In this document: positions 5,554 to 55,020 of the stretch, piece after piece
Numbering within the stretch: position 1 is the first letter of the stretch
Layout of the letters: every line of letters begins with the position of its first letter
NCBI GenBank assembly: GCA_951230915.1
Contig: OX579637.1
Location: forward strand, 29,202,001-29,266,000
From: Antitrichia curtipendula
Taxonomy: Eukaryota > Streptophyta > Bryopsida > Hypnales > Leucodontaceae
Length of the DNA stretch: 64,000 bases
Direction: 5' to 3'
Made by a program: the position numbers and the translations under genes
Notes under the pieces: generated by a model
The model's input: the letters and a program-made list of their open reading frames with translations, nothing else
What the model was told of the DNA's origin: nothing
The model's database searches: none

Positions 5554-5561
5554 TACAATGT

Positions 5562-21579: not shown

Positions 21580-24384
21580 TGTAAACCTTTATAAGAAAAC
21601 TGTAAACTCAAAAAGCATCAAAGCATTCAGACGACTACCTGGAGCGCTCGAATTCACGGGACCGTTGCCCGTGTTCATTGGTACTTTGTCAGAGTACCGG
21701 AAAACCCGTCGGAATACAAGGCGTATCAAATGCCGTACAGTCTGTACTGTGCGTAATTGTTTGTATATTGGGCCAGGGGGGCGACCGTAGTGTGCTTTCA
21801 CCCAATGGTTTAGCTAGGTTTGTGGCCAAACAAAAAGATTGTCTTTGTAAATCGAAGACATGTTTTTCTAAATTCCTCATAATATGCAACACTTTATTCT
21901 TGTATGGTGTTTTGGCATCCAAATCATGTAGACCATACACAACTAGAGCCACTAATTTCTGGAAATTGGTGCAACGGTTCAAAAAATGCTCATTTAAAAT
22001 ATACTTCTTTATATGAACGCCTGCCAGTTTAGAGCACAGACTCAAAGGTGGGGTGAACTCTGAATGTATCATTTTGAATTTCGGTTTTTGAATACATCAT
22101 CACATTCTACATGGTGTTATAAGAAATGAAAACAATTATTGTACACAAAGTGATTTATTTCCCTCAAAACATGGATGATTTCCATTGACAATGGCGTTTT
22201 CAATATATCAGTATTTTTATATATGGTAAAGGATTTTATTGTGGTTTAGAAGTGTACATAGCGTTTTCACCCAGACCCATTAGAATACTCGCCTGGACCT
22301 AGTAGCATCCAAGCCTAGACACAAAAATCTTAACCTAAGCCTTCAGTTTGAGCTCAACATTACAAAATTCCTACCTATGCTTGTAAAAGTCCATGCCCAA
22401 CGTTATAGCATCCTCGCTTGTTTTGATGAAGTCCCCACTCGTAACTTGTTGTCCCCACATTGACTCCACTTTGTTGCAATTGCATCCCTGCCCATCCTCT
22501 GGTGCACCTCGAGTGCAAGAAATAGGTACAAAATGGAACCAAATAATACTAAGGATTGAAAGAATTGAGGTTGCAACATCAAAGCTTAGGTCAAATAGGA
22601 TTAATGTAAAATTTAATCTTTTGGAGGACATACCTCTAAGTGGTTGACTTCAATGAAGTCTAGGATTCAATTTTTGATGGCATCATCTCTTTCATGGAGT
22701 ATGTCACCCCATTTGCAGAGTTGTGGCTTGGTTGTAGTAGATGATTTGCTAAGTTGTGGCTTGGCTATAGTCTAGATCCTCAAAACACATCATCATAAGC
22801 AAATATTATTCACACATTGAAATTAGAAAATGTCATTCAATAATCACATACCAAGAGGTAGATGTGAGCCCTCAAATTAGCACTTGGAGCTCTGGGATTA
22901 TTTTTTGCATTTTATTGTTATTTTTTAGTGTGTCAATTCATGCAAAATAACATGAATTAGTTAGTTGAGAGGAATTTGGTAGCAGTCCCTACCAGATTAG
23001 TGAGGAGTCTTCCTAAAATTGGGGAAAGCACAAATATTCTACTTATCCATAATTTAGGACCTAGCTAAAAGTTTGAAAGCTTAGATTAGTAGTTCTGAGA
23101 TAAATAAAGATATGAGAATTAGCCAGTTCTAGTGTCTTATCCATGTGAAACTATGCCAGCAGAGTGCAGGTGACAGCTTGGCTAAAGTTTAAGAGTTCAG
23201 TTCATAGATTTAGAAGTCTTGGATTCAATTCACAGAGAGTTTAGATCAGTTTATGAAAGTCTTGCATATATTTAAAATATGAATCCAAATGCAAAGTAGA
23301 CAAAGGTCAGGGTGATTGGAGCTTACAAAACGGTGCTTTTAGAGAAAAGCATGCCAAGAGGTCAACATTGGAGCAATCATCCACGACAATCCAAGTACCA
23401 AATGATTTTCCCCTCGAGTAGAAATGAATAAGGAGTTACTAATTTTAACATCCTTATGCATAATGCAATTGGAGATTTGGTTTTCCCCATAGCTTTAAAA
23501 AACTTCTTAAGAGCTTTCCACAAAAATTTTGGGATTTTACAAAACTCCACATGACTCCATGAGAAGTCAAACGCCTTTGAAATTGATGGTAATTTCATAG
23601 AAATTCCCAGAGTGCAGTAAAATCTCACTAAAAATTAGATTAGAGTTTTATATGCCAAATAACCGACCTGTTAAGTTTGAAGACTTTCTGTTAGTCAAAA
23701 GTACCAGAATCGGCAACAACATTGAATTTAACAAGAATTTACAACATGACGACGGGTTGACCGGCAAATCAGGAGCTTACAATGTCTAAATGTTGCAAAT
23801 AAGGAGTCTTTTCTAGCTCTCATGAACCTTCCAGGCAACCCCAACTAGCTAGTTTTTTTGAATATTTCAACGTCCAATAGTTGGGACTTTGACTTTTCTT
23901 TGGAATTATCGTTAGTGGGTTTTACAAGTATTTACAGCCTGAAGGAAGGGGGTAGGGGTCTTGTATACTAATTGGGGTCTTTTGAATGTGATGGCGCAAT
24001 CGGTTTTTAATTTCAAGCTGTTCTCAAGAAGATAGGTAGAGGTCAGCCGTAAGTTTGACTTTTTTGGAGTAATTAGTGGTAATTAGGGATTAGTTTGCAA
24101 AATATCTTGGTGGAATTTGAAGATTGGATTTAGTTAAGATTTCAAATCTTTCCTTTAAAAGCCAATTTAGATTACATTAAGAATATTTGGATATACCGTA
24201 AGGTTATTCACAAGTTAACTCAAGGTCAATTATGTTAATTTCCCAAATATTTTTGGGAAAAATCTTAGATTTTGGTTGTACAAGATTTCCTTGCTAATTA
24301 AGACTTGTTCTAGAAAATTCTTAAGATTAAACAAAGATTATTTAGCAAACATCTTAGGATAGATTAGGATTTACCTTAAGGTTA
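21580..24384. other. Non-coding, AT-rich
   Basis: GTAC motifs continue to about 21740 in front of the transposase-like start (a likely promoter region) and then become rare. Nothing gene-like follows. A small duplicated phrase occurs at 22725-22775 (TTGTGGCTTGGTTGTAGTAGATG/TTGTGGCTTGGCTATAGT). Confidence 0.4.
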
Positions 24385-24660
24385 TGTCATGTGAGTAGCG
24401 TGGTACTGGTTTTCTCGTCGGCCCGATGTTGCGGAGCTAGGCGAGATCGACGGAAGGCGGCGTGGAGCGCGATTGGGCCTAGGCTTTGGCCTTGGCGGGG
24501 ATTGGCACCTCGGTTCGGGACCTCGGTGTGTATGTACTCCACGTGGGGGAATGGAGACTCATCCTTTTTCAAGTTGGAGTCTCCCATGTGATGGAGTGAG
24601 GCTTTGCCTCATGGACTCCATCCAAGCATGTAGTCATTCTTTACGAATGGTGTAGACTTG
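24385..24660. other. GC-rich island with two hairpins
   Basis: A GC-rich stretch (about 24410-24540) is followed by two inverted repeats: ATGGAGACT (24551-24559) with AGTCTCCCAT (24578-24587), and GGAGTGAGGC with GCCTCATGGACTCC (about 24593-24628). Such a patch in AT-rich DNA could be part of an LTR or a promoter, but I found no second copy in the window. Confidence 0.3.
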
Positions 24661-26872
24661 ACTTTCTTTGTGAGGTTTTTCTAGTTTCTTTTGAAGCTTT
24701 TCCTCACACTTATTACTTGAAAAAGGATTTCACGACGTTCATAGGTGTATGCGTAGTGAAAATTGACACCTAGTTTAGTGTTAAACCGTGTTTTTGAGTG
24801 TTTTTGAGGTGGTTTGTGTGTGCTGAAATGGCAAGCAAGGTAGGAGCTTGCACACCATAGCCACGGATTAGAGGAGTTTTGGGCTTGAAAAGGGGTTCTA
24901 AACTCACTTATAGGAGTTGGGGTGCATTATTTTCCTTCTTTTGGGGTTAGAGATAGGAAATTAATGGATTAGAAGGTGCCACCACACAAAGGGCCCACAA
25001 AATTAAGGGGAAAAGTGTGTCTCTCCCCTAAAATCTCTCTAAGTAGGACTTGGAGCTTGGAGAGGGGGGGAGCGTACGGTTGACCTTGGGGGTAGGGGAG
25101 TTGGAAGGACTAGGAAGCAAATTCAGTCCCTAGGTCTGGTTGTCGGGCGGTTCCAAGCCTTGCAGGGGGTGAAGGCTCAGGCATGGACAGCGTTGAACGG
25201 AGAAGCTAGGAGCTGGGTCATGGTGTGTTGGAAGACGAACCTGGGTGTGCAAGGTGTTTGATTTGCATTCAACTGAAGCGGCGATAGTGTGGCCTGGCTT
25301 GTGGTTGCAGTTTGGATTCGGGGATGCTTGCTGCTTGCCGTGGATCCGGAAAACTCGTGGACTTAGTGCGGACAGAGAACTAGTTGTGTCTGTCTAGCTC
25401 ATGCGTGGTGGTAGTGTGTTGTGTAGGTTGTGTGATAATTTGATAGTGACGCTGTGTTGAGAGCCGGACGGACGAGGCGGTCTCGACGTGCGTAGAGGTT
25501 CGTGCATGATGTATTTTAAAAGAGAGCAAGATTTCTTGGTGTAAGAGGAGCGGTTTTCGTTTTATTTGGTGGAAAAGTGGAGTGGCTTTTCTTAAGAGTC
25601 GTGCACCGACGTCTTTCTTGTGATGTTCGGACACGGAGCCATTTTAATCTGCATGCCTGTAGAGTGCCGGATGCCTCTCAGAAACCTGCAGTAGATCTCG
25701 TCGAGAAGTTAAAGACTAGGCCATCAAGAGCTTTGATGCTCTAGGTACAAGGCGGCTTCAGATATTTATTTTGTCTGTCGCTATTGTTTTCTCATCGACA
25801 CTGCAGCTAGTCTCTCTTCTCTCTACGTTACGATAGAAATTCTCTTCTCCTAGAGTTTAAGGTAACTTCAAGTTTGTCTCTGAGTGATCTCCTCCGTCTT
25901 TTCTAGCGAATCGCATAATAGCGTTTTGTACTCACCTGTGAGTGATGACAAGTCGACTGGATTTTACTAGTTGGAACGTTAAAGGATTAAATCGAGGTTC
26001 TTCATAGGAGAGCCTGCGGGAGTGCTGTCCTTCAGAAGAGCTGATTAATAGCAAGAGATCGACTCGAAGATCAAAAGTGCCTTTTTACCTCTCTGGAGTC
26101 TGTAATCTAACCAGGCTCAAAGCTCGAAATCCAACTACATAGCGATTGCATTTGGCGAGTTTAGGAGTAATCGCTGGACGCGGAGCTCATCGTTGGAGTC
26201 TCATTGCTGCAACGTCGGAAGAACAAATCGACAGGACGAGCAAGGGAGGGACGGCGATTCTATGATCAAGAACCGGAGCACGGTGACCTGCTATCACCGG
26301 TCATTCAGGGTTGGTGACCGGTTCAGCCGGTCATCCAGGTTTGGCTGCCTGCTCCACAGGGGGTTTAAGACACAAAATTTCTAAAAAGAAAAAAAAGAAG
26401 GACAACTTTTCTTTTCTTTTCAAGTTTGTGATTGTATGTGTGTTTAGGGGACTTCAAGGTGCAATTGTTGTACATGTTCACCTAAACCCTAGAAATTCAG
26501 CACCCTAGTTGTGGTTGAAAAACCTACCTAGAGACCCCCAAACACAAATTTTACTTCGGAATTGCATTCCCTTGAGGTTATAAGAGTGTTTGGATGATCT
26601 TAGGAGTGCTTCTAGGATTTTAGGATTCCCTTGGAGGTTTTGGGGGGTGATTTTAGTCTTTCACCTTGAAAACCTAATTTAAAACCCTAAAACATTTTTA
26701 GACTCCAATTCCGGTCATTAGGTGACCAATGGGGATTGGAGGTCTATAGGGAGGATTTGTTATCACACATGTTGTGATTCCTAGACGTACCTTTGTCGTG
26801 ATTTGCCGGAATAGAGGTGCATGGTTGTTGTGCCTCCAATCACTGGTAGATGACCGAGGCATTAGCCTACTT
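24661..26872. other. Non-coding 5' flank of the retrotransposon
   Basis: Mixed composition with no sustained gene-like frame. If the element at 26873 has a 5' LTR it should lie here, but I could not match it to anything after 35441. The only protein-like scrap is at 25945. Confidence 0.35.
25945..26262 (+). pseudogene. Possible LINE endonuclease scrap
   Basis: From ATG 25945 the translation begins 'MTSRLDFTSWNVKGLNRG', like the start of the AP-type endonuclease of plant LINEs (typically x-SWNVRGLN). It stops at about 26005. A later piece near 26221-26260 reads 'EQIDRTSKGGTAIL', like the 'SRGGVAIL' motif of the same domain. Too short to be sure. Confidence 0.2.
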
Positions 26873-27283
26873 ATGGTGACTACAAGGGCACAGGCGGTTG
26901 CCCAATCAGAGCAGCGTGCACTATCTGATCGTGAACAGTGGTTGCAAAAGGCGGATTTCATTGCAGCATTGCTTAAGTTCATCCAAGAGCGTCTACCAGC
27001 ACGAGGACTACAGCATCCCGAACAGGAGTTTTGGGAGACATGGCGTGCGGATTTGGCATGGGCACAGTGCATCGATGTAGGCCAACTCGGCATGGTAGCA
27101 CATCGATTATTTGTGGAGTTGACGCCGTTTGTTACATTGGAGTGTTGGGATGACAAACGTGATGCGATATTGCGGCACTTTAGGAATGCACGATATTTGC
27201 ATGAGATAGAGAATGATATCGTTGTAGTCGGTTGTGAGCATCTCAACCGAGATCGTATGACAGACTTTGAGCGTTGCTCTTAG
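26873..27283 (+). CDS. Small ORF upstream of Gag
   Basis: ATG 26873 opens a 136-residue frame beginning 'MVTTRAQAVAQSEQRAL', ending at TAG 27281-27283. It is rich in Arg, Glu, Leu and Trp and looks helical ('DFIAALLKFIQERLPARG', 'DDKRDAILRHFRNARYL'). It has no stop although the rest of the element is damaged, but it is short. It may be the N-terminal part of Gag or a separate accessory protein; no family recognised. Confidence 0.4.
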   Translation: MVTTRAQAVAQSEQRALSDREQWLQKADFIAALLKFIQERLPARGLQHPEQEFWETWRADLAWAQCIDVGQLGMVAHRLFVELTPFVTLECWDDKRDAILRHFRNARYLHEIENDIVVVGCEHLNRDRMTDFERCS

Positions 27284-27493
27284 TTTATATTAGTAGTGTG
27301 GATTTGGACTAGTAGTTATTAGTTGGTCCTTATGTGGGGTGGACTTGGCGATGTGTGCTAGTCACCACTTATATATGTGAGATTACTATTGATTTCACAC
27401 GTGATTCAGCATTGGAATGATGAAGGTGGATTTCACTCTTTTCTGTGTTTACATATGATCTTGCAATGGTGAACTGGACCATGTGGTCTCACG

Positions 27494-29520
27494 ATGGACA
27501 AAAGCAAGGGTGTTACTAAATCCTTCAGTTTACTACAACTTGGTGAAACAGAAGACAAGGGCACTCAAATCAACTTGAATAGAGAGGACCTACAACGAAT
27601 TTTGGATTCTTTTCAAAGTTTGCAGGTGGGCTCATCTAGTAGCCCATCAAGACAAGATCAAGTCCAAGACTGTGTTTTTCCATTTGTGTTGACACCATTG
27701 GCTCGGGATCGCATTGGAGTGCAACCCTTCAAGCACCCAGGCACCAAAATACTTAGTGCCAAGGCAATACAATTTTGAACTCAACAAGGTGGTGTGCGAA
27801 TTATCTGTGAACGGCGCTTGCAAACCCCTGCAATTGAGGCACCATTGTGTAGAACTAGAGGAAGGGTGGAGGAAATAGATCTAGTCATCCCTCGTGTGGC
27901 GGTGGTTTTGCGAAACGAAGGCCAACGGAGAGAGGTTGTTAGGAATACCTTCTCAGGGCGCGTGGAGTTGCCAACGTTTTCTTTGGTTTTCACAGAGTTT
28001 CAAGCCCAAGGGTACATATTCCACACCACTTGGCAATGGGAGCAAGGTTGGTGGTTGGAAAGGGCGTCTAGCATATGGGATGCATTGACATTGAGCTTTG
28101 TGGATTGGGAGGTGCCACGTACCATTTATTCTGACGTCAGTGAGGGCAAGCACGAGGCTTGGCAATATTATTTGTGAATCCAAAGCTGGATTCACCTCAG
28201 CGGACGGGATACACTAGGAGTGGTGTACCATTTGCAAGTGACCATTTTCACGACCCGCTGGGCATTGTTGGGGTCGTGCCAGTTCGCCCTAGGAGCCAGC
28301 GGCCCTTCATTGGCACGCAAAGTTACAGTGAATTAATATCGGAGACCAGTGAGGACCAAGTGGATTGGGTGGAAGAGACTGCAAGTGATGAAGGTGGAGA
28401 TTTTTATGTCACGGCGGTAGACCACGGGGTACGAGTTTCTCATGTTGAGTCAATTTTCGCTTGGGATGACATGGCATCCCCATATGGAGGTGCCGACCGC
28501 GGGGTGCGGCGGTTTTTAGGTGCCACAGGCACCATGGAGGTGGATGATTTTCGGAGGGAGTTAACCATGTGGTGTGAACTTCAGAAATCACGTAACACAG
28601 GATTTAATCCATACATGGTATGGAGAGCATTGTTTGGGTGCCTTGAAGGGGCACCATTGTCAAACTATGGGGAGTGTGAACTTGCTTATTCCACAGAGAT
28701 TTTGGCATGGCGGGACTATTATGCCCCCAATTATGCCGATGTTTGGGGAGGAGGTCCAAATGTGCTACCCTTGACTATTAAAGGAAAGAAACAAGAAGGG
28801 AGTATAAGTACGGAGGGCGCTGAGGCCACTGTGATTACATCTACACCAGTGACAGACCCTCTACCTTTCAACCCTACTGCACGATTTTTCATGCAGTTGC
28901 AGCGGGACTACCATGGACAACGGGCTGACAAAATGAAGTCACTTTGCACGTTTGCACATGGAAGTGAAGAATTGTTGCGAGAGGCGCATTTGAGACTGAG
29001 GCGGTTAATTTCTGCCACACATGGAGTGACTGAATAGCAAGCTGTTCAGCACTGGTACAGTATTTTGGACAAGGAGCTAAAGACTCTTGTCTGTGGTGAG
29101 GCCTTAAGGTTAGGTGTACCACCAACTTTAAGGTATGTCTTTGAGACCTCCGAGAGGATTGAAATCAACCTTTTGGAGGAAAAGGCCGCCATGGGGTTTT
29201 TACGGAAGGAAGAAAAACCGCCAGAAAAGACTAAAGCTGCAAAAGCTAGCATTCCAGCTAATACGGGAGATGCCGACATTACATGCTTCAATTGTGGTGG
29301 CATTGGTCATTGTCGGCGGGATTGCAAGAAGGCAGCGAAGAAAAAAGCGGCCAAGATTGGTGGCTTTTGTTCTGGGTGTGGTATCAAGGGCCATGGAGAG
29401 ACTAGCTGCTGGAAAATACATCCAGAACTCAAGCACAAGGGAGCCAAAGATGCCAAAGGCAGTGACGCTAAGGAGACCAAGTCCACGGGAGGAGATAAGA
29501 AATCATGGAAGGCTCGATTC
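27494..29520 (+). pseudogene. Gag (capsid and two CCHC zinc knuckles), broken
   Basis: The frame starts at ATG 27494, meets TGA at 27776-27778, continues in the same frame to 28177, then moves to frame 1 near 28160-28180, and goes on through TAG at 29035-29037. The region around that TAG ('RRLISATHGVTE' before, 'VQHWYSILDKELKTLV' after) reads as one capsid-like helical segment. Two zinc knuckles follow: C-x2-C-x4-H-x4-C at 29284-29325 ('CFNCGGIGHCRRDC') and again at 29368-29409 ('CSGCGIKGHGETSC'), flanked by Lys-rich linkers. Gag packages element RNA in cytoplasmic particles and the knuckles bind nucleic acid. The first break could be CGA to TGA and the second CAG to TAG. Confidence 0.7.
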
Positions 29521-29589
29521 ACAGAGTTGGAGGCCAAGATGGCGGCAATGAGTGCCACCACCGAGGCAAAGGGGTCCCCTTCGCAAAAG

Positions 29590-30580
29590 ACCACGACGTC
29601 TTTTTATGCAGAAGAAGACGACTACATGTTATGTGGTATGGCGGATCCAAAAGGAACGCCAATAGATGCTTTTGCTATGACACGGAGCAAGACCGGAGTC
29701 CATGAGGTACCCCAAGGTGTGAGTTCGGGGTTGGATCCACAACGAGGTGAGGCCAACCGCCAAGCACGACTACCAGAATCATTCACGTTAGAGGAGGTGG
29801 CACCTACTTCATCTATGGTTCCACCAATTCGACACTCCAACAGTCGACGTACTACTCGAATTTCAAATACGAGTGATCAAAGCACGGGGATACTTTTTGA
29901 TGCAGCCACTACGGTTTGTCAAGCCCCTTTATTTTCTGCGTCCATGATTTCGCACTCGCAATTCAGTGCGGCTATAGTGTTCCAATTGGCAGCCACCATG
30001 TGTGAGGATAGCACCTCAACCTCGGTTGGAGCCATGGGAACTGCGCTTGAACCAAGACTGGCGACTGGTGGGGATTGGAGTCAGTCAGAGTGTCTCATAT
30101 CCGCAGCTGCTCGGTTGAAGACCATGCCAGCACGTCCGGCAATAGAGCGGTCATCCATCACTCCAGGGGTGGTGGTTCTTGATAATTCTCAGAGCATTTT
30201 CCAACTTATTGGGCCCAAAGGGATAATTTTTGTACCTCGACGGGTACTATTGGATTCCGGTGCACAACCCTTGATGCTAGGTGCGTCAGCAATTGAAGGC
30301 TTAGGTTTGACCGAGGACACGTTAGAAACATGTCCGTGGACGACTAGTACTTCTATGGGAGGGACGGAGCAAGCAAATGGCATCACAAGGAGCGAGTTGA
30401 CGTTACGTCTCCGTTATGATGATGTTGAGGATCCTAGCTTCATGAAGGTGAAAGCTATAGTCACAGAGGCCAAATCATATGATGTTTTGGTAGGGGCTAT
30501 GGTATTATATCCTATGGGTTTCACCTTGGACTTCTGGGAAGAGACAGCCTCTTATAGACCGGGATGGCAAGCAGGTGATG
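29590..30580 (+). CDS. Linker and retropepsin-like aspartic protease
   Basis: A Ser/Thr-rich linker is followed by 'VLLDSGAQPLMLGASAIEGL', with the catalytic DSGA at 30253-30264 and the hydrophobic motif typical of Ty3/gypsy proteases. Later 'YDVLVGAMVLYPMGFTLDF' (about 30478-30535) matches the family's second half (ILG-type motif). The protease cuts the polyprotein. No stop in this segment. It directly precedes the methyltransferase, so the captured domain sits between protease and RT. Confidence 0.75.
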
Positions 30581-30879
30581 GGCGGAAGGCTCAATTGCCA
30601 GCTCGTTTTATTCGAGTTCTCACCGGTAATTTGGCTGATCTCTATTGCTTTTCTGGGCTGGTAGCACAAGGCCAACCTTGGTTTCATGAGGATTTTGACA
30701 ATACTTCTATCGCCGCTTCAGTTGCCAACGCCACCGACGATAAGGATATCGATGGTTTGGAGGCTGGGGGCGACACATTGTATCAACCAGGGGTAGAATC
30801 GGCGTGGGAAAGTATTGCCAAGCTACAAGATGCCGCAGAGGCTGTGATCCAGGAGGCGTGGCAACAATCTTTGCTGCCA

Positions 30880-31960
30880 CGAGATAAGGAAGAAGAAGAG
30901 GTGTGGAAGATACCGGTCCACCTCTCGATACTTCCACAATCCATTGGAAGCCGCCAAACGAAGGTATTACACTTTTGGAGTTGTTTGGTGGTGTTGGCAC
31001 TGGATTGGCTGCCAACATTGCAGGCAGGTGTGAAGGTGAAGCGTTACATTTATGTCGACAGTGATGACATGGCACAACAAGTCGCCAAGCGTCATGCCCG
31101 ACGGTTGTGCCTAGCTTTTCCATCATTATTGAGCACCAATGCTATCAAGATTGCCTTTTCTGCATTATCGATCGACATTTCTCTAATTGCTCATGATGAC
31201 ATTGTACGGTTGGGGCCCGTGGATTTAATTATTGCGGGGTGGCCATGCCAAGGCATGTCTATGGCAGGAAAGCAAAATGGCTTGAAGGACAATCGTTCTT
31301 CTTGGTTCTATGATATGGTGCGACTGATCCGTTTTATTCAGACTTCTCAACCACGTCCACCGGGGGATATTATTGAAAATGTGCCTGTGGTAAGTACTTC
31401 ACGTACACGTACACTTGAGAGTATTCATCGCATTCATGGGATTCTTGGAATTCCTGTACTAGTGGATGCGGCAGCAGTGGGCTCCCGAGCTCATAGACCG
31501 TGGTTGTGGTGGACCAATATGGCACCACCAGAGTTATTGAATGCAGCGGTTGGGCGTATTCAACGACCTGATGTTTATGTGAAGGATATTTTGGATCCCC
31601 ATCGTTCACCACGGCGTGCATACCACGATGATCAAGCGCCATTAGCGATAGTCAATCGCAAGGGTGAACCACGAAGGGCTTTGTCCACTTTTGTGAGTTT
31701 TTCAAGGTCCTACGCTTTTAAGGACAATGGACCGGGTTTAGTGTGGGATGCCCGCACTGAAGAGATGGTTGAGCCCAACGCCGATAAGCGGGAACGAGCT
31801 ATGGGGTTCCAAACTAGAGTCACAAATGTTCCCGGCATCACGGAGTTTCAGAGATGATATCTAATTGGCCAAGCTATGGATTTAAATTGTCTCTCTTGGG
31901 TGGTGTCACTTGTCATGGCCGAGCAAAAGCGTGTAGCTTTGACGCTAACGGGCCACTTGG
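30880..31960 (+). pseudogene. C5 cytosine DNA methyltransferase domain inside the polyprotein
   Basis: Motif I 'LELFGGVGTGLAAN' (SAM binding) is at 30975-31016 in frame 3, not in the frame of the rest. Going back to frame 1, 'VKVKRYIYVDSD' follows (motif II). Motif IV is 'GWPCQGMSMAG', with catalytic Cys codon 31246-31248. Motif VI 'ENVP' starts at 31375. Motif VIII is represented by 'SRAHRPWLWW' (about 31486). 'RERAMGF' at 31789-31809 and 'YLIGQAMDLN' at 31858-31887 correspond to motifs IX and X. A TGA at 31855-31857 (likely CGA before) separates the last two. Frame changes lie near 30885-30905 and 31018-31030, so motif I alone is out of frame. The enzyme class transfers methyl from SAM to C5 of cytosine. 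All catalytic motifs are present, so the domain was intact when captured. Spacing and the PCQ/ENVP style are eukaryotic or phage-like; subfamily not assigned. Confidence 0.85.
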
Positions 31961-32292
31961 GTTTTCAAGAGTTGCAAGCGGCCATGAAACCATCAAGTTC
32001 TGGTGGTCCAGACTTGGTGGTTGGGGGCAAAGAGGCCTTTATAGCTCATCCGTGGGATTTATGGAAGGATACTCCATTTTTCACAACTCCACAAACAAGT
32101 TGGCCTAGTTGGGAGCAATTGGCCAAACACAAAATCAAATTGGAGGAACACGTGGAGAAGTTATTCTTTGAAGAACACATAGAAGGCCAAGCTGAAGAAC
32201 TATAGCGCTTGAGCCAAGTTGAGGAGCAGTATGGCATGGCTGGGGTGGAGCAAGAGGACTCTGCTCTAGGCGGTGTGCAATAGCAATCAAAG
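31858..32292 (+). pseudogene. Linker between methyltransferase and RT
   Basis: Open except for TAG at 32203-32205 and TAG at 32281-32283. After motif X it turns into a Glu/Lys-rich helical stretch ('KIKLEEHVEKLFFEEHIEGQ'). No domain recognised. Same frame as the methyltransferase and RT, so it was once continuous with both. Confidence 0.55.
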
Positions 32293-33790
32293 GTGGAGAA
32301 ACCTGCTTCAAAAGAAGAAAGAAAAGAGGCGGTGACTAAGGAAACTTGGCAACCGATGGTAGGCCTGGAGGATGAAGCAAAGGTGAAAGAGGAGCAAGAG
32401 TTCCTTAAAGTATACATGGATTGTTTTGCCTTTAGTCTCAAGGATTTGGGAGTATTAAAAGGGCAAGAGGTACGGATAAACTTGACGGATGATGCACCAA
32501 TTTATCGCAAGCCGTACAAGTATAGTGAGGCAGAGCGCAAGATGATTCAAGCGCGGACCAAAGAGTTATTGGAGGCGGGATTGGTGGAGTTAGCTTCACC
32601 GGATTGTGAGTATGCATCGGCAACGGTTATGCCATCCAAGAAGGACGTTTATGGAAACTGGACCGAGAAAAAGATGTGTGGAGACTACCGTAGAATTAAT
32701 AAGTTAACGAAGTCAGACCGTTATGCAATGCCCACACCGGAGGAGAATTTTGACGCCATCGGTCATGCTAAAGTATTTAGTACTTTGGATCTCCGGTCGG
32801 GCTATCATCAACTTGGTATTCGAGAAAGTGATAACTAAAGGAGAAGACGGGGTTCTGGGGGATTGATGAGGATGGAAAGGACCGGCTTTATCAATGGAGG
32901 TTCCTTCCATTTGGTTTGAAAAATGCACCGGCAAAATTTCAAAGGGTGATGGATCGCATATTTTCTGGCTTGGAGTTTGTTAAATGCTATATTAATGACA
33001 TTATTGTCTTTAGCACAAACCAACAACAACACAGAGCTCACTTGATGGAAGTGTTTGCTAGATTAAGGCTTCACGGGTTAAAACTACATCCAAGCAAATG
33101 TAAGTTTTATTATGACCGAGTGGAGTACTTGGGCCACATGATATATCCCGGGGGATTGGGAGTGGTTGCTAGCAAAGTGGAGGTGATGCTCTCTATTCCA
33201 AGGCCAAAAGATGTGAGTAGATTGCGGGCATTTTTGGGTTTGTGTAATTACTACCGGAAATTTGTAAAGACGTTTAGTGCCATTGCAAAACCATTGACCA
33301 TGCTGACAAGGAATGATCAACCTTGGATGTGGGGAGATGAACAAGAGGCTGCTTTTCAGCAATTGAAGGAACGTTTAGCATCGGCACCCATATTGAGAAG
33401 GCCAATTTTTGGTAGGTCATATCAATTACACACGGATTGGAGCTCACTCGGGATTGGCACGGTGTTGACCCAAATGGACAACGATGGTAAGGAATTTGTG
33501 GTAGCTTATGCCAGTTGTTCCAACAACAATGCGGAGGCGCAGTATAGCTCATATGAGGGAGAGTGTTTAGCAGCAATTTGGACTATTGCCCATTTTTGTT
33601 GTTATTTATATGGCAACGAATTTCTATTGGTGACAGACCACCAACCGTTGAAGTGGCTAATGGAGTCCGACAAGCTCACAGGGAAGCTTGCACGATGGGC
33701 TCTAATGCTAATGGAGTACGATTTTAAAGTTGTACACCGTGCCGGTTTGGTGAATATGGATGCTGACGGCTTGAGTCGCAATCCAAGTCT
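32293..33790 (+). pseudogene. Reverse transcriptase and RNase H (Ty3/gypsy type)
   Basis: RT begins near 32480 ('APIYRKPYKYSEAER'), with 'STLDLRSGYHQLGI' (first catalytic Asp) just before a frame change at 32836-32837, where two extra bases and a TAA interrupt the frame. It resumes as 'KTGFWGIDEDGKDRL', 'LPFGLKNAPAKFQRVMD' and 'CYINDIIVFS'. The usual YxDD is YIND: codon 32994-32996 is AAT where GAT is expected, removing one catalytic carboxylate. RNase H follows with 'LHTDWSSLGIGTVLTQ', 'YEGECLAAIWTI', 'VTDHQPLKWL' and 'HRAGLVNMDADGLSR', so its acidic residues are all there. The enzymes copy element RNA to DNA. The YIND change would inactivate polymerisation. Confidence 0.85.
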
Positions 33791-34099
33791 CAGCCAAGTA
33801 GATTCCACGGTTGCTCGATGGCACGTAGAGGAGGGAGAAGATTCGTTACCAGGGTGGCATTGTGCCACCTATTTGAGTATTTTGGCGAAGACTGGAGACG
33901 CTACTGAGGAAGCCATTGTGGCCACGATGGATGCGAATGGAGGTGAAGAGTCTGGGGGCGCCAAAGATATTTTTGATGATGTGGAGGTGATGAAATACTT
34001 GAAGCATGGTAAATTGACAACCACGGTGTTGCCCAAGGAGAGAGATCGGATCCTACAACGAGCCAAGCGGTTTGTGTGGGAGGGGGCTCATTTGCTTCG

Positions 34100-35262
34100 A
34101 GTGTGGCTGGATGGCAACAAGAAGGTGGTACCGACACCTCATGAGAGAGTAAAGTTGATTCTGCATGCGCACGAGGACTTGGGGCACTTTGGAGTGCGGA
34201 GAACTCACAGCTTGCTACAACTTCACTATTGGTGGAGAGGTATGCAAATGCAAGTCCAACAGTTGGTAGCTAGATGCACGGTTTGTGATAGAGTGCGGGC
34301 ATAATTTAATGCCCCAATGCCGCAATTACAACCGTTGCCAATCATGGGATTGGGCTATAGGTGGAGTTTGGACTTTGCAGGCCCATTGCCGGTGACATCA
34401 CGACATAACAAGTATGTGTTGGTGATGATTGAACATTTTTCTAAATGGATTGAGTTGGTGGCATTGCCTGACAAGTTCAGTGAGGGGGCCGCTTATTCTT
34501 TTTTAGATCGTGTTTTGAGTCGCTTTGGAGTTCCAGCAGAGGTATTGACCGACCAAGGACGTGAGTTTCTTGGTGAATTTCAACCCTTGTGTGAACAAGC
34601 CATGATTGATCACCGCACTACTTCACGAGATCATCCCGAAGCAGATGGATTGGCGGAGCGCATGGTGCAAACCGTCAAGAGGGGACTTCGAAAGTATAGC
34701 TTGAAGAAGGGGCATCATGGAGATTGGAATTTGCAACTGCCGTGGATAGCAATGGGCTATCGGTTTAGTAAGCAAGCCTCTCTAGCTTCTTTTTCACCCT
34801 ATTATTTACTGTTTGGTCGTCATCCGGTTTTACCAATGGCCATCAAACAAGATGCAGACAAGATATTGGATACTATGGATGATCCCGACACGTGGGCACG
34901 CGTATGCGAGCAACGTGCGGAATTATACAAACGGGTGATGCCAATGGCTTTAGAGAACCTTTCTATTGCGCAGCATAGAGACACTCTGCGTTATGCCACA
35001 GTACAAGGAGGGGGCTATAGGCCTCAAGTGCGACGTTTTCTGCCTGGGGACTATGTCTATTTGCAGCAGACAGCGCCAACCACACTCGACGTGACTGCAG
35101 GACGTATTATTCTACGAATGCGTGAGGTACTCAAGTCGAGAGTATTGCTCTTGGAGGGTCGTGACGGCAAGATTTGGAAAGACCACACGCGCAATTGCGC
35201 GCCATGTCACTTGCCTCACATTGATGGAAGGATTGATACTAGCACTTCGAGGATTTCAACTG
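34100..35262 (+). pseudogene. Integrase (HHCC zinc domain, DDE core, GPY/F-like end)
   Basis: The zinc domain reads 'HEDLGHFGVRRTHSLL' then 'CTVCDRVRA', followed at once by TAA 34302-34304 (CAA expected from the continuing frame). The catalytic core has Asp at 34371-34373 ('LDFAGPLP'), Asp at 34551-34553 ('LTDQGREF') and Glu at 34656-34658 ('DGLAERMVQTVK'), the DDE set in proper spacing. 'FLPGDYVYLQ' and 'RVLLLEGRDGKIWKDHTRNC' correspond to the small beta-barrel C-terminal part. Integrase inserts the element DNA into chromatin. There is no chromodomain after it; a PHD finger takes its place. Confidence 0.85.
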
Positions 35263-35270
35263 GGCTGAAA

Positions 35271-35405
35271 TGTGTGTTGTGTGGAAGCGCTAAGCGCGCT
35301 GCCACTATGGTATTGTGCGATATTTGTTCCACTGGGTGGCACACGAATTGTTTGAGTCCGCCGTTGCAAGAAATTCCGGCGGGCCGATGGGTTTGCCCCA
35401 ACTGT
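35271..35405 (+). CDS. PHD zinc finger at the integrase C-terminus
   Basis: C-x2-C, then C-x2-C after a nine-to-ten-residue loop, H-x2-C and C-x2-C: 'CVLCGSAKRAATMVLCDIC', 'GWHTNC', 'GRWVCPNC'. This is the C4HC3 order of a canonical PHD finger, including the Trp two residues before the last Cys pair. PHD fingers read histone H3 tails. By analogy with integrase chromodomains it may steer insertion to a chromatin state; the target mark is unknown. Same frame as the integrase; the polyprotein ends at TAG 35439-35441. Confidence 0.85.
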
Positions 35406-35518
35406 GTGTCGGGGCATGGACACGCATCTTCAACTTCGTAGGATTTTCCATGGGGTTCTCATTGTTCCTTCAGAGAAGGTCACTGAATTCGCCAGTGTGA
35501 AAGGGGCTTTGACACCGG

Positions 35519-35541
35519 CAAAGGGGGCGAGTAAAGGAGTG
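35519..35541 (+). promoter_or_regulatory. Possible polypurine tract
   Basis: A mostly purine stretch with runs AAAGGGGG and AGTAAAGGAG lies about 80 bases after the polyprotein stop, followed by TGGTTATG. Ty3/gypsy elements prime plus-strand synthesis from such a tract just before the 3' LTR. No LTR was confirmed after it. Confidence 0.25.
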
Positions 35542-37099
35542 GTTATGAAACCACTTGCTACATTTGTGTACTGTGTATTATGGGTGTTTATTTTCTTTGC
35601 TCTGCTATGGATGTCACCAATGTTTAGTGCTTGTGGTGATAGAATGTTTTTCGCATTCTATCATTGTTTGCAGGATTGTACCGTGATTGTGACATGCGTC
35701 ACAAGTCACGAGGCGTTTTCCCTATGACCACGGTGTCCACCATTGGTCAGGAGCTATTGAGTCTTGGTGTGGTTAGATTGCTAGCCAATTACAAGGCTCA
35801 TTGTTGACTGATGGAATGCTATCTCACATGTTGGCACGATGTAATCTTGGCACGATGTGTTTGTACATGATAGTTAGTTTTGATTAAAAGAAATAATATC
35901 TATTGGTAAATTGAGGTGGTGGGGCCTTCTAGCAAGTATGTAAGGCTTCCCTCCAAAGTTTTCCAAGATCCCAAACCTATTTTCTGATTATCATTACTCT
36001 GCTGGAGTGTGGAAGACCCACACTTCAATTTGCTTGACCGACTTTGTCGGAATTATCTATTGAGGCCAAGATATGGCCAACTTTTGCTTACTTTTGCTTC
36101 CTTTTAGTGGAGGATTTGGTTAGAGGATGCGGGGTTTCCTTTACAACCAACAAATCACACTAAAAACGTACCATTGGGAAGTTTAGTCCCCCAATACTTG
36201 ATACTTTTGATAAGATACTAATAATTTGTGATTGTAGCTGAATTTGAATTAGAACCTTAAGGCAGTGAAGCTTGACTTCACCAAAAGATTCTAATTTCAA
36301 ACCCCAACCAACACTTTGTTGTATAACAAAAAGTTGGTCTGATTAACTCCTAATTTTTGGTTTAAACATTTTCAATGTACCTCATTTAGGACTTAAACTT
36401 TTGGATACTTGGAAACACACTTTAATCCTTGATTTTCAATTTAAACACTGTCATGTGTACCCTCATTCAAGAATTAAGATACTTTCAGAACAAGTTGAGA
36501 CCATTATACGTAACTTTAGTCTGGGGTTGTTCTTGCACAGTGAAGCTTTGACCTTCAAAACAATTTACCTTAGAGACTTGGGAAGAATATTAGCATTTTC
36601 CAAAGCTTTGGCTGGTCAAAGGTTATTTAAGCCCAACACTAACACCAAGATTGGCCCTTTCCGTTTCATTTCAGATTACATCATCTACCTTGTTGTGCTA
36701 ATTTGCCAATATAATGGATTTTAGTCTTAATCCTTGCTTAATTTAGATTGATAGTTTAGCCTCTAATAGAATTAGTTTGTTTTAGAAGAAATTCCCCTTA
36801 AAAGAGATCCAAAACCTTAGTTAGATTTGCTTGCTAGTTATTATCCTCAAATCCCAAAACTTAGTTAGATTTGTTTCCTAATTATTATCCCAAAATCCAA
36901 AAACTTAGCTAGATTTGTTTCGCCAATTTAATCTAATTTCCTTCCAAAATTAGTTTTGCTTAGATTAGGAAACCAAAACCAGCACCTAGAGGGTCCAGAG
37001 AGCAAACTAGAGAGAATCCAGGCACTGAGAGACTGAGAGTCCGGTGAGTGACTAGGGAGTCAATAGTGAGGCTAAGGATCGGAGAGTGAGAGACTGGGG
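35542..37099. other. 3' flank of the retrotransposon, non-coding
   Basis: Open stretches are short and not protein-like. Small duplications occur (GGCACGATGT-near 35835/35852; 'AACTTAGTTAGATTTG' at about 36820-36910 three times). The 3' LTR would be expected here but was not recognised. Confidence 0.35.
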
Positions 37100-39339: not shown

Positions 39340-40300
39340 AGGATTTGTGAATCGTAGTCTCTTTGGAAATCCACAACTCCAAAGTTTGACAATTTAAGTG
39401 CAAAAGAGGCCCAAAGAAAAAGGGAGAAGCTGGAAATGTCAAGGACACCTGGAATTCATGAACATATACAATTGAGGACTCTTAGATTTTCACTTTAAAG
39501 CCCCATGCATTCATAATATTAACTAAGCACGGTGCACTTGAATGAATTGTGTTCTCCTTGAAAACCCATGTCTCCAATGTTTAACAATTCAAATGCCAAA
39601 GAGGACAACAAAAAGAGGGAGAAGTCAGAAATGTGAAGGACATTTGAAATTGACGAATTTATGCAATTGAAGACTCTTAAGGTTCCATTATGAAACCCCA
39701 TGCATTAAAAATACTAACTAATCACAGTGCAGTTAAATGAATCGTGGTCTCCTTGGAAACCCACAACTCCAAAGTTTGACAATTCACGTGCAAAAGAGGC
39801 CCAAAGAAAGAGGGAGAAGCTGGAAATGTCAATGACACCTAAAATTCATGAACATATGCAATTGGAGACTTTTAGATTTTCAATATAAAGCCCCATGCAT
39901 TCATAATATTAACTAGGCACGATGCACTTGAATGAATTGTGTTCTCTTTGAAAACCCACGTCTCCAATGTTTGACAATTCAAATGCCAATAAGGCCTAAC
40001 AAAAGAAGGAGAAGTTGGAAATGTGAAGGAAACTTGAAATTAATGAATTTATGCAATTGAAGACACTTAAGGTTTCATTATAAAACCCCATGCATTCACA
40101 GTACTAACTAATAACGGTGCAGTCAAATGAATCGTGGTCTCCTCGGAAACCTACAACTCCAATGTTTGACAACTCAAATGCCAAAGAGGCCCAAAGAAAG
40201 AGGGAGAAGCTGGAAATGTCAAGGACACCTGAAATTCATGAATATAAGGAGTTGAGGACTCTTAGATTTTCACTATAAAGCCCCATGCATTCACAATATT
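39340..40300 (+). repeat. 195-bp satellite, five units, alternating A/B types (390-bp dimer)
   Basis: CCCCATGCAT occurs at 39501, 39696, 39891, 40086 and 40281, exactly 195 bp apart. Units alternate: A-type has GGCCCAAAGAAA and GATTTTCA-TATAAAG; B-type has CTTAAGGTTTCATTATGAAA-like ends. So the higher-order period is 390 bp. The array stops abruptly at TGTCACAACC (40301). Confidence 0.85.
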
Positions 40301-41970: not shown

Positions 41971-44811
41971 TCAACTGTATGATGCAAGACTCTGGTTGAT
42001 GACTTCAATTTGAACAGATGGGATCTTGATCATGCAATGGACGGTGTCAGTTCTTATGGAAGAACTCCATGCTGTCATTATGGCGTTTGTATGCTCCCAA
42101 ATTGGTGGCTCAGTTTCTTCAACCTTCCAACGCAAACCTCTATCGCTGTCCCATCCAGTGTAGTTGTCTTGAACATCCCGATTTCTTGATGTTGGACGGA
42201 AATATTGAATGAGAATGCAATTCGGTTATTCAGGGTTACAGTTCAGATCAGACAATGCCCTCGCAATCCAAACTGGCCAACTATCACCGTCTGCGGGTCG
42301 AACTGCAACAAAGTACCCATTGTAGAGATCGCGTCCTACCCTAAAAGATGGTACTGAGCGACCAAACAATGGCCCAACGTAGGCGTCATCCTCTGCAAAC
42401 TCTTCACGGTCCTCGCCGTCATCCCCCAATTGATCCACTTGTGTCGCTCGAACACGTGTTGTTGGCCAAAAACCATCTGGCAAAACTGTAGTGCTCGACA
42501 TCGGTTCTTGCATTGCTACCCTTACACCGCGCCAATAGTGAACCAAAATTTCGTAGCGTCTTCGGTATTCTCTAGTAACATCTGCGTTGCACAAATTCTC
42601 CCAATACTTCTCAAATCCAGATATACCTTTCATTATGTCCTCCACACCTTTCATGGCCTTTAGTTCCACTGGTAATGGTACTCCACGGGGCCACAAACTT
42701 TGTCCTTCCGCATCTTCTTTCCACAACTTAATGGGTCTACCATTTTCCCCTTGCCAGTCCACATCAGTGCACAACAATTTGTACTTCATCACAGGAATTC
42801 CATTAGAATCTAGGTAAAACTTCACTTGTTGTGGCCTCGTGTGACCAACAAGAATATCACCACCGTCAATAAATGAACCTGCAATGAACCCCTTGAAATC
42901 AGGCACTTCTTCGATTAGATGAGGGATAGTGGGTATGGATTCTACATCCATGAACGACTTCATGAGTGCAGGAACTGTAGGGAAGCTCTCTTTCTTCAAG
43001 AGCATGCTCCATCTCCCAAACAACGCATCAATGTCATCATGTGTGTGACCAACGATCATGAAGTTCACATGCACTTCACGAAAGATCTTGTTTGCAACAA
43101 GTAGAGACCAAAAACAATACACATATCGGTTTTTGTTGTCCCCGGTGGCATTGTCCATTTGCACATTCAGAATGGGTGGCAACGGTGTCGCAAGAACTAA
43201 GCTTATCGGTGGCGGAGGAAGCACTGCTTCACACATCTCTTTTCCCTTCAGTATTGCTTCAAACAGAGGTGTCGATGCTGCATTGACAAACAACGCCCTT
43301 GAAGAAGACTTTGGTGGTAGTTCAAGGTCACGCAACAACTTTGCCATTGAACCAATGGTGTAATTGGAATCATGTTTAAACAGATCCAAACCATAATGTG
43401 CATAATGGACATCAGCATGCCCATGCGCAATCATGCCCGTGACGGACACAGGCAACTTCATTAGGCCATCAAGCTCTTTGCTTTTGTGTGAAAAGACAGG
43501 AGAAGCGGTTTTTGCATGATCCATCTTGTCGTGCATGATTGTGATACATTCATGTGGAGAACTTTGCGACCAATATCGGTTCGCATAATAGATTTCCCTG
43601 TGAGCACAAGCAATGGCGAGGTGTTTATCCAATCTCCTTGACCATAACATAGCGGTTTGAGATCCTGCAAGAGCACTCTTTATGAGCTCCCGCAACTTGT
43701 CACAAACAGCACATCGAGCAAAATTATCTCCGGGCTGCTTCACATCGTACTCTGGAAACCTAGTGGACCTGATCTTGCTCAAGTTTGATGTAGATACCTC
43801 TTGCAATCCGAAAGCAGCATTGATCTCGTTGATTTTTGCCATTTGACCCTTCCATTGAAACGTAGCCGGCAAAATCTTGGAGACCACCTTCTGCCTACAC
43901 TTCAGAGTCCGGATACGATGTGGCATGTGATCTGCTTCTTTCTCCAAGATGCATTTTAAAGTAACAACCGCTTGTTCCGTGTGTTGTCTTGGCTTAAGAA
44001 GTCCCAAATTGCCATGTTCTCTTGCTTCTCGACCATCCTGTAATGCATATTTTTGGTAGCGATAGAATGTAGATTCCGGAACCCCGGCAATATGCATCCA
44101 TGCTCGCACGCACACAACAATTTCATCAATAGTCACCATCCTTCTTCCTCGTGAATCACGATACATCTGTCTATGAACTTCAGTCTTCATGAAGGCTCTG
44201 TGCTTGAACGTAGAATTTTGATACATCCGTTCACGGAAAGCTTGAATTTTTTCTCTTGGAAACAGCTGAACGCAATTCTTACTACAACAGGTCTTGCTAG
44301 ACACCAAGTTGATGGAGCCTTGACTGAGAAGGTCCTTCATTTTGATGCAAGACTCACGAGGGGGATTTCGAACAATACTTGTATACGGCCGACTGGACTT
44401 CGAAGTCAGAGGGTTTTCACGACTAGTTTGTAGTCGATTGAAATTATCCCTCACGTCATGGTCGTGCAGGCTTGCCCCACGACAGTGGACCAATTTAATT
44501 GGCCATGCTACCAATGCACGCACTCGCTCTCGAGGGATGTCTACTTCAGAATGAGTTTTGGAAATGTGCACCGCCACATGAGTATCTCCAAGAGGACCAT
44601 TGGCACCAAGCACAAGATCCGAGTTCGCACTGTGGCATATACCTTCACCAACAAGAACACCAGCATCATTATAGAGGGTAACAACACTTGTATTCCAAAA
44701 CCGCCTTGGAATTCCTTCACACTCGGGAATGTCAACATCCATTTCAACATGGTCTTCAGTATCATCATCACCCCATTCTATATTCTCCAAAGGATCGTCT
44801 GAGAGGCTCAT
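41971..44811 (-). pseudogene. DUF7869-type transposase-like protein, full length except one TAA
   Basis: On the minus strand ATG 44811 opens 861 codons to TAA 42226-42228. The same frame then continues for 84 more codons ('PNCILIQYFRPTSRN', 'GLRWKVEETEPPIWEHTNAI', 'HCMIKIPSVQI') to TGA 41971-41973, so the original protein was probably 946 residues with Gln (CAA) at the break. Residues 175-180 'CCSKNC' and 367-370 'CAVC' are likely zinc ligands. Residues 425-435 'IMHDKMDHAKT', 552-561 'MDNATGDNKN' and 588-599 'GHTHDDIDALFG' are the acidic motifs of an RNase H-like core, as in plant DUF7869 proteins, which I regard as transposase-derived. No introns are needed. Apart from the TAA it is undamaged, unlike its neighbours, so it may be younger; alternatively the 861-residue form is the real product. 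Confidence 0.75.
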
Positions 44812-53841: not shown

Positions 53842-55020
53842 AAATTATAGAAGTTGCAAATACCCTCAAATATTTAAATCCATGAGAATATATCATTTGT
53901 GCGTAATTTTCATCCATCTCTACGTGAAATTTAAAAAAATATGGAATAAACTTGGGTCTGTATTTTAATGGCTCCCTACATCAAATGTCATGGAATTTGA
54001 TTTGGGGAGACACTTGAACAAATTTGTAGAAGTTGCAAATACCCTCAAGTATTTAAATCCATGAGAATATTTCATTTTGTGCGTAATTTTCACGCATCTC
54101 CAAGTGAATCAAAAAAAAAATGTGGAATAAACTTGGAACTGTACTTTAATGGCTCTCTACATCAAATGTCAGGGAATTTGATTTGGGAAGGCACTTGAAC
54201 AAATTTGTAGAAGTTGCAAATACCCTCAAATATTTAAATCCATGAGAATATTTCATTTGTGCGTAATTTTCATCCATCTCCACGTGAATCAAAAAAGATA
54301 TGGAATAAACTTGAGCCTGTACTTTAATGGCTCCCTACATCAAATGTCTTGGAATTTGATTTGGGGAGGCCCTTGAACAAATTTGTAGAAGTTGCAAATA
54401 CCCTCAAATAATTAAATCCATGAGAATATTTCATTTGTGCGTAATTTTCATCCATCTTCACGTGAATCAAAAAACATATGGAATAAACTTCGGTCTGTAT
54501 TTTAATGGCTCCCTACATCAAATGTCATGGAATTTGATTTGGGGAGGCACTTGAACAAATTTGTAGAAGTTGCAAATACCCTCAAGTATTTAAATCCATG
54601 AGAATATTTCATTTTGTGCGTAATTTTCACGCATCTCCAAGTGAATCAAAAAAAAAATGTGGAATAAACTTGGAACTGTACTTTAATGGCTCTCTACATC
54701 AAATGTCAGGGAATTTGATTTGGGAAGGCACTTGAACAAATTTGTAGAAGTTGCAAATACCCTCAAATATTTAAATCCATGAGAATATTTCATTTGTGCG
54801 TAATTTTCATCCATCTCCACGTGAATCAAAAAAGATATGGAATAAACTTGAGCCTGTACTTTAATGGCTCCCTACATCAAATGTCTTGGAATTTGATTTG
54901 GGGAGGCCCTTGAACAAATTTGTAGAAGTTGCAAATACCCTCAAATAATTAAATCCATGAGAATATTTCATTTGTGCGTAATTTTCATCCATCTTCACGT
55001 GAATCAAAAAACATATGGAA
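53842..55020 (+). repeat. Higher-order block in the satellite (537-bp trimer, partly copied from 49.2 kb)
   Basis: A variant with TTCATTTTGTGCG, CACGCATCTCCAAG and TTGGAACTG occurs at 54071 and 54608, 537 bp (three units) apart, with the intervening units also matching. The same variant plus the preceding unit (TTATAG, GTGAAATTTAAAA) occurs at 49211-49500, 4634 bp (26 units) earlier. So blocks of several units were copied together. Confidence 0.75.

Follow-up and report, generated by a model that had tools for sequence, protein, structure and literature searches.

A dead Ty3/gypsy-lineage retrotransposon of Antitrichia curtipendula with a Dnmt3-type methyltransferase between protease and reverse transcriptase and with split, DIRS-like repeats

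In 2018 de Mendoza described, for Klebsormidium, a gypsy element that has DIRS-like repeats and has captured a DNA methyltransferase (MTase) (PMC5890265), and the part of that paper available to us also reports de novo CG methylation by the Dnmt3 of a DIRS element from dinoflagellates; the initial annotation of the locus described here, which named precedents in dinoflagellates and a charophyte, was correct in doing so. The Klebsormidium element, KnitGypsy-Dnmt3, is intronless, and the text of the paper, figures aside, contains no occurrence of PHD and gives no domain order (PMC5890265). Marchantia has five DNA methyltransferases, of the MET, CMT and DRM classes, and 'Dnmt3' does not occur in the available text of PMC5784723. 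Of the other papers, again as far as their available text goes, PMC6317226 contains neither 'methyltransferase' nor 'PHD', PMC6338049 (which cites de Mendoza 2018) and PMC9289625 contain no 'PHD', and PMC8616336 concerns other DNMTs. Among the matches listed from the open-licence literature, represented by titles and the starts of abstracts, none reports a self-primer, a PHD finger or a leaky stop for any DNMT-bearing gypsy element, nor two positions of the MTase. DNMT capture by a gypsy element is thus known, while a leaky stop, two MTase positions, a self-primer and the end structure reported below were not found described. What a parasite gains from bringing its own methyltransferase into a host that already methylates its DNA has been a standing question since 2018.

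Anatomy of the element and its methyltransferase

The window, by which we mean the whole stretch of 64,000 nucleotides that was analysed, is C5:29202001-29266000 within a 400-Mb assembly of 303 contigs. It contains a Ty3/gypsy-type element at positions 24385-35872, with the target-site duplication GTTA at either side (24381-24384 and 35873-35876, identical to each other). The MTase had been placed at 30880-31960; it does lie there, but the feature is larger and takes in the whole element. Pfam searches give the domain order CCHC-PR-MTase-RT-RH-IN-PHD on the plus strand, with the PF00145, protease, RT, RNase H, rve and PHD profiles all matched in the window, and both this order and the same placement in sister copies bear out the earlier claim of a cytosine MTase between the protease and reverse transcriptase of a gypsy-type element. 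The Gag-protease-MTase reading frame, interrupted in the window copy, runs from 28471 to 32280, with a putative start codon placed by eye according to where the Marchantia gene model P0006 begins. Within it, a single open frame (29065-31857, 930 aa) carries a CCHC zinc knuckle (29278-29331; PF00098, E 0.0011, slightly short of the cut-off set for this family), an aspartic protease with the motif LDSGA, which is found in a sister copy (30235-30495; PF13650, E 0.004, under the cut-off), and the PF00145 match. Frames 3' of this one match RVT_1, RNase H, H2C2, rve and PHD. They belong to a second reading frame (32284-35441), likewise interrupted in the window copy, which holds a reverse transcriptase in two pieces (32677-33143; PF00078), RNase H (33414-33719; PF17917, E 9e-33), an integrase with H2C2 zinc-binding domain and rve core (34137-34637; PF17921, PF00665) and a PHD finger with an intact C4HC3 pattern of zinc ligands (35271-35405; PF00628, E 7.9e-11). 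The gypsy-type RT-RNase H-integrase that marks the KnitGypsy-Dnmt3 kind is therefore present. A chromovirus was considered and rejected, as no chromodomain is found at E 0.01 in P0003 and a PHD finger stands there instead.

Gag is preceded by a leader of about 3.7 kb (24729-28470), the length of which varies among copies; 24385-25090, 26283-26954 and the sequence from 27898 onward are common to the window and a copy on C2 (hereafter the C2 copy). Elsewhere in the window, about 90 head-to-tail units of 178 bp with 90% matches form a satellite array at 47920-63998, reaching the window end, and there are further tandem arrays of 195/390-bp and 109-bp units (39348-40300; 5559-6483). On the minus strand, 42226-44811 is an 861-aa open frame matching DUF7869 (PF25273, E 3.9e-41), perhaps a protein of another mobile element.

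The MTase domain extends over approximately 30950-31940, as judged from residues 765-1092 of the sister copy L039 (G000:C2:38005601-38015600), and PF00145 matches residues 703-787 (31171-31425) at E 8.5e-14. The initial annotation read motifs I, IV, VI, VIII-like, IX and X, in order, inside a Gag-Pol frame. L039 has all motifs in one frame; in the window, motif I is out of frame and absent from the open 930-aa frame, and motif X is interrupted by a TGA at 31855. In other copies, correspondingly, query residues 3-46 are matched in one frame and residues 45-325 in another. The window reverse transcriptase has YIND in place of YIDD, and there are further stops besides the TGA in motif X. The window copy is dead.

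Searched as a single sequence, the MTase has DNMT3A as its best solved relative (E 3e-10), then DNMT3C and 3B, followed by 4onj 'DNA methyltransferase' (1.7e-6), which we take to be a plant DRM, and HhaI (2.8e-6). A profile of eight relatives again puts DNMT3A first (3.4e-23), ahead of 4onj (9e-13) and DRM2 (1.7e-9), with weaker matches to HaeIII and HhaI (3e-9) and DNMT2 (3e-6). Motifs I-IV-VI-VIII-IX-X stand in linear order, so the enzyme is not rearranged like DRM, and it is nearest to DNMT3. The catalytic Cys, the Glu-Asn and an AHRxR block are invariant in all eight aligned relatives, one of which has ECQ in place of PCQ. A genome search for ADD_DNMT3 gave no match anywhere, controls included.

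A profile search of the genome with PF00145 gave 43 matches, and the window MTase piece 104 matching stretches among 112 candidates; a cytosine MTase inside the element polyprotein is thus present in multiple copies. The strongest PF00145 match in the genome, L001 (G000:C199:29510-29878), lies in a 335-aa open frame on a 48-kb contig and may represent an exon of a host gene, or else the contig may be foreign. In the best sister copy, 281 residues match at 94% without a stop. L039 has an open CCHC-PR-MTase frame of 1207 aa, then a UAG, then a same-frame stretch of 1050 aa with RT, RNase H, integrase and PHD; its Gag is frameshifted further upstream. The five copies that were compared over their length (the window and L039-L042) are all interrupted somewhere. 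The MTase is kept between protease and reverse transcriptase in sister copies, and no intact copy lacking it there was encountered. Three RT-matching places without a nearby MTase match did lack the MTase (3/3); L071 keeps the linker that follows the MTase, and L070 and L072 gave no P0002 match. We tentatively read these three as truncated or deleted rather than as MTase-free families. Since only 44 of 1329 RT candidates were scored, related families without an MTase may well exist.

Sixteen copy pairs were compared for selection. For the MTase, the pair L039/L042 gives dN 0.101 and dS 0.873 (dN/dS 0.12), alongside dN/dS of 0.10 for RT, 0.09 for IN and 0.12 for PR; over all near copies compared with L042, the MTase ratio is 0.12-0.13, close to RT. 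Judged by these substitution ratios, the MTase is under purifying selection between the families of L039 and L042. Ratios are higher in three near pairs (0.28, 0.49 and 0.52) and in pairs with L021 (0.20 and 0.31), and reach 1.12 for L033/L034, dS being saturated in pairs with the most distant families. We read the pattern as selection in transposing lineages and decay after insertion. In the L039/L042 pair, dS is higher in the MTase (0.87) than in RT (0.58) or IN (0.46), so exchange of the MTase between families is possible.

Singletons in the MTase piece comprise 65 C>T/G>A changes against 5 reverse transitions, at rates of 0.26 in CG, 0.26 in CHG and 0.10 in CHH, and the adjoining piece gives 68 against 5. 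This suggests that the copies were once methylated, without indicating the agent; host silencing alone explains the decay.

A conserved stop between methyltransferase and reverse transcriptase

The two reading frames are separated by the stop CAA TAG CAA TCA (32278-32289, plus strand), which as CAA UAG CAA UCA has the readthrough context of tobacco mosaic virus (TMV). In TMV, CAR YYA is essential for UAG readthrough, which is about 10% in vivo, and candidates for readthrough among rice gypsy elements are mentioned in the same text (PMC2754532, in the part available to us). Thirty loci around MTase matches were collected, of which 28 aligned to window 32121-32560 (L028 and L038 gave no alignment) and 26 cover the stop, L033 and L034 having aligned without covering it and been read apart. 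In these 26 copies the site is TAG in 23, TAA in 3 and a sense codon in none, while the remaining codons of the piece contain 45 stops in 3662 codon cells. CARYYA follows the stop in 22 of 26 copies; the four that have lost it can be read as having C>T or C>A substitutions, and the most variable bases of the core are R (CAA/CAG) and the first Y (TCA/CCA). In L033 and L034, whose identity is about 41-47% over PR-MTase and 57-62% over RT, the sequence directly 5' of RT, in the same frame, is AAC TAG CAA CCA. Many relatives in public protein sets are about 1250-1450 residues long and extend no more than about 130 residues past the MTase, and by eye, from the protein sequences, P0015, P0020, P0023, P0028, P0029 and P0030 end in a tail like that preceding the TAG in L033/L034.

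Because MTase, linker, stop and RT are consecutive in all 26 aligned copies, we reject a chance insertion of a neighbouring gene or transcript, in agreement with the earlier view of the MTase as part of the polyprotein. One unbroken Gag-Pol frame is ruled out by the conserved stop: the MTase belongs to a Gag-Pol frame only across that stop, and MTase and RT do not share one uninterrupted frame. Our conclusion from the conservation and context of the site is that the stop is probably leaky, of the TMV type, and we hold readthrough at the UAG with moderate confidence. The likely products would be Gag-PR-MTase as the main one, with RT-IN-PHD as a minor extension.

Repeats, self-primer and insertion junctions

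The window copy begins with a repeat A (24385-24715, starting TGTC, 96-98% identical to the A repeats of near copies) and ends with a different repeat B (35530-35872, ending GATA, which is GACA in most sister copies), with no repeat shared by A and B. No long direct repeat flanks it, so that it is not an ordinary Ty3/gypsy LTR element. Directly before B lies a purine-rich tract (35520-35529), the putative plus-strand primer from its sequence, whose position fits the A2/B2 junction of the C2 copy. Among eight near copies, seven are A-internal-B and one, the C2 copy, is A1-internal-B1-A2-B2, that is, has split direct repeats; the seven were judged from the best 40 of 76 and best 40 of 82 candidates, in which no A2B2 was found. 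In the C2 copy A is 331 bp and B 347/348 bp, with identities of 97.9% (A1/A2) and 98.0% (B1/B2), and B1 and A2 meet in the palindrome GACA-GC-TGTC, a junction found once in the genome by pattern search. DIRS-like split repeats are therefore present in this family, complete in one copy. Target duplications of 4 bp lie directly at the insertion ends in all eight near copies (seven by script; C1:43331212 by eye from its flanks, ATGG/ATGG). Elements of the DIRS order are defined by a tyrosine recombinase and the lack of a target duplication; the rve integrase together with these duplications rules that order out.

If B-A corresponds to an LTR in the usual sense, then A2/B2 would be a clean end-to-end LTR joint, the form of the C2 copy would be a two-LTR circle opened at its B/A junction, and A-internal-B would be explained by a circle with one LTR or by recombination. 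Remnants in which A adjoins B occur in at least three further places, and L058 and L059 share the same A/B joint; there is no target duplication at L058, one at L059 only if its start is shifted, and an unclear case at L060. With the full form in one of eight near copies and the B/A junction found once, the circle model draws on one copy and on these A/B-adjacent remnants. For the ends, and compatibly with any of the readings weighed below, the chances are about even that the A-internal-B copies are remnants of A-internal-B-A-B after recombination between B1 and B2, rather than integrated one-repeat circles. B1 and B2 are 98% identical and 331 bp apart in the C2 copy, and their recombination would keep the outer target duplications, as seen in the seven A-internal-B copies; against this, the event would be needed in seven of eight near copies and has left no direct trace.

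Within A, the 14 nucleotides ATCCTTTTTCAAGT (24561-24574, A177-190) are the exact complement of the primer-binding site ACTTGAAAAAGGAT (24715-24728) which adjoins A, and none of 5000 shuffles of the site reaches 12. This position would put the RNA start near A177. Ten loci were compared, and in nine the A repeat is 69-80% identical to that of the window; 11-14 exact complementary bases are present in eight of the ten, while L065 keeps 10 and L067 keeps 8. The self-primer covaries with its site: in most other loci each arm is shorter than in the window by one base, and L069 carries a substitution matched in both arms, as self-priming predicts. Self-priming is the habit of the Tf1-type LTR elements. 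Self-priming binding sites are mentioned in the available text of PMC6317226.

Relatives, mechanism and known systems

Among the public homologues (60 listed and three further), the MTase takes two main positions. In 21 (P0039-P0041, P0043-P0045, P0047-P0051, P0053, P0054, P0056-P0061, P0065 and P0066) it is placed after RNase H and before integrase, or the piece is compatible with this arrangement. A further 38 rows are labelled PR-MTase-RT: in 35 PR precedes the MTase, and few of these extend as far as RT; P0036, P0037 and P0042 have only an MTase before RT. P0062-P0064 show a third topology, with the MTase before RT, on long branches of unsure placement. The RNase H-MTase-IN group falls on one side of a branch in both the MTase tree (20 of 61 rows, support 100/96; P0052, P0055 and P0061 were dropped for short matches) and the RT tree (18 of 24 rows, 100/99). 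PR-MTase-RT forms one group in the RT tree (85/67, 3 rows); in the MTase tree three changes are required to account for its label, since P0036, P0037 and P0042 fall, with weak support, outside it with the other group. By pattern, the window and L039 have a PHD finger with all eight zinc ligands, and so do 16 of the 18 other proteins tested, P0063 and P0064 having no match. No cage tryptophan stands two residues ahead of the zinc-binding histidine, from which the finger would be predicted to bind H3K4me0. The combination with a PHD finger, earlier thought possibly new, is not peculiar to this element, given the 16 public homologues that carry it. Within the PR-MTase-RT group we observe the PHD only in the window genome, since other members are cut before its position. 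The PHD finger thus probably belongs to the whole lineage, within which, to judge from the trees, the MTase probably changed place or was exchanged. No relative was found in viral_contigs, and no homologue listed is named as Klebsormidium, most entries being without an organism name. Environmental JGI metagenome proteins (P0146, P0158 and similar) are 70-81% identical to parts of the MTase, and metagenome MTase clusters have up to 320 members, so the family is abundant in some environmental samples.

We have high confidence in the anatomy: the window element is an ancient retrotransposon of the Ty3/gypsy lineage, dead in this copy, that has captured an MTase of Dnmt3 type and belongs to a family with split direct repeats like those of DIRS elements. 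The joint explanation that we favour, and consider fairly probable, has the following course. Ribosomes would mostly stop at the UAG and release Gag-PR-MTase, a minority reading through to add RT, integrase and PHD, so that the MTase would be packaged at the level of Gag. Inside the particle, and before integration, it would methylate cytosines of the element's own double-stranded cDNA. The RNA would begin near A177, fold back onto the site adjoining A and prime its own reverse transcription; the resulting cDNA with B-A repeats would circularise and be opened by integrase at the palindromic B/A junction, while the PHD finger behind the integrase would read the histone H3 tail and steer insertion. 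Dose is a clue here, as a packaged, Gag-level enzyme points to the particle's own cDNA rather than the host genome, and split repeats, self-priming and a palindromic junction would together explain DIRS-like ends on a gypsy element. Our confidence in the purpose of methylation is low, and hiding in silent chromatin or protecting cDNA, which the initial annotation suggested, are candidate purposes only. A fuller version, which we put forward only tentatively and think rather doubtful as a whole, holds that a leaky stop of TMV type makes the MTase a component of the particle at the level of Gag, that an ordinary DDE integrase inserts circular cDNA opened at the palindromic repeat junction, and that within one PHD-bearing gypsy lineage the MTase has switched between a low-dose position on the RT/IN side (RNase H-MTase-IN) and a high-dose one on the Gag side (PR-MTase-stop-RT).

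The target of the enzyme could instead be RNA or host chromatin, for example in silencing the neighbourhood of the insertion or tempering the element for the host's tolerance, a reading we regard as unlikely. A dinoflagellate LINE-borne DNMT produced no DNA methylation in yeast, for which its authors suggest RNA as a target, and the PHD finger might tether integrase and co-packaged MTase to chromatin; yet DNMT3A is the closest match of the present MTase, with the RNA-methylating DNMT2 a long way behind, and the de novo CG methylation by the dinoflagellate DIRS Dnmt3 likewise speaks for DNA (both dinoflagellate results as given in PMC5890265). We would be about equally surprised if the stop were an ordinary terminator, with Gag-PR-MTase and RT-IN made separately and the latter obtained through reinitiation, internal entry or a spliced RNA. 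The Marchantia gene models P0019, P0021 and P0031, which span the MTase into RT, presumably across predicted introns, would fit splicing, but the frame of L039 is kept across the stop, CARYYA is retained in most copies, and between the stop and position 32500 no codon is ATG in at least 60% of near-family copies, which makes reinitiation less likely. That the MTase is a passenger, decaying without function, seems to us very improbable. It is true that the five copies examined at length are all broken and that its dN/dS is 0.28-0.52 in near pairs and above one in one distant-family pair; the low ratios against L042, close to those of RT, and the keeping of catalytic motifs in relatives at 34-55% identity (eight aligned, and 31 in another comparison) argue the other way.

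Several known systems come close to the element. The MTase-bearing gypsy families in the gene sets of Marchantia, Calypogeia and Sphagnum, which the databases do not name as such and of which no published description was found among the matches listed, have the order PR-MTase where both are present, as here, with 41-55% identity in the MTase, and several of their gene models end soon after it. KnitGypsy-Dnmt3 of Klebsormidium nitens likewise has a Dnmt3-type MTase inside a Gypsy Pol polyprotein, purifying selection, and DIRS-like repeats with gypsy domains; unlike here, the available text describes no leaky stop, self-primer or circle junction (PMC5890265). SymbioDIRS-Dnmt3 of dinoflagellates resembles the window element in carrying a Dnmt3-type MTase within Pol, with de novo CG activity shown, but is a DIRS retrotransposon, described as distantly related to gypsy, and an independent capture (PMC5890265), whereas the present element has an rve integrase and 4-bp duplications. 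TMV places the same leaky UAG with its CAR YYA signal between a methyltransferase-bearing product and a polymerase (PMC2754532, as far as available); there the domain belongs to a viral replicase, and here to a retrotransposon with a DNA methyltransferase. Tf1-type elements share a stretch near the inferred RNA start that is complementary to the primer-binding site, and the window element differs from them in its split repeats, in a PHD finger instead of a chromodomain, and in its MTase.
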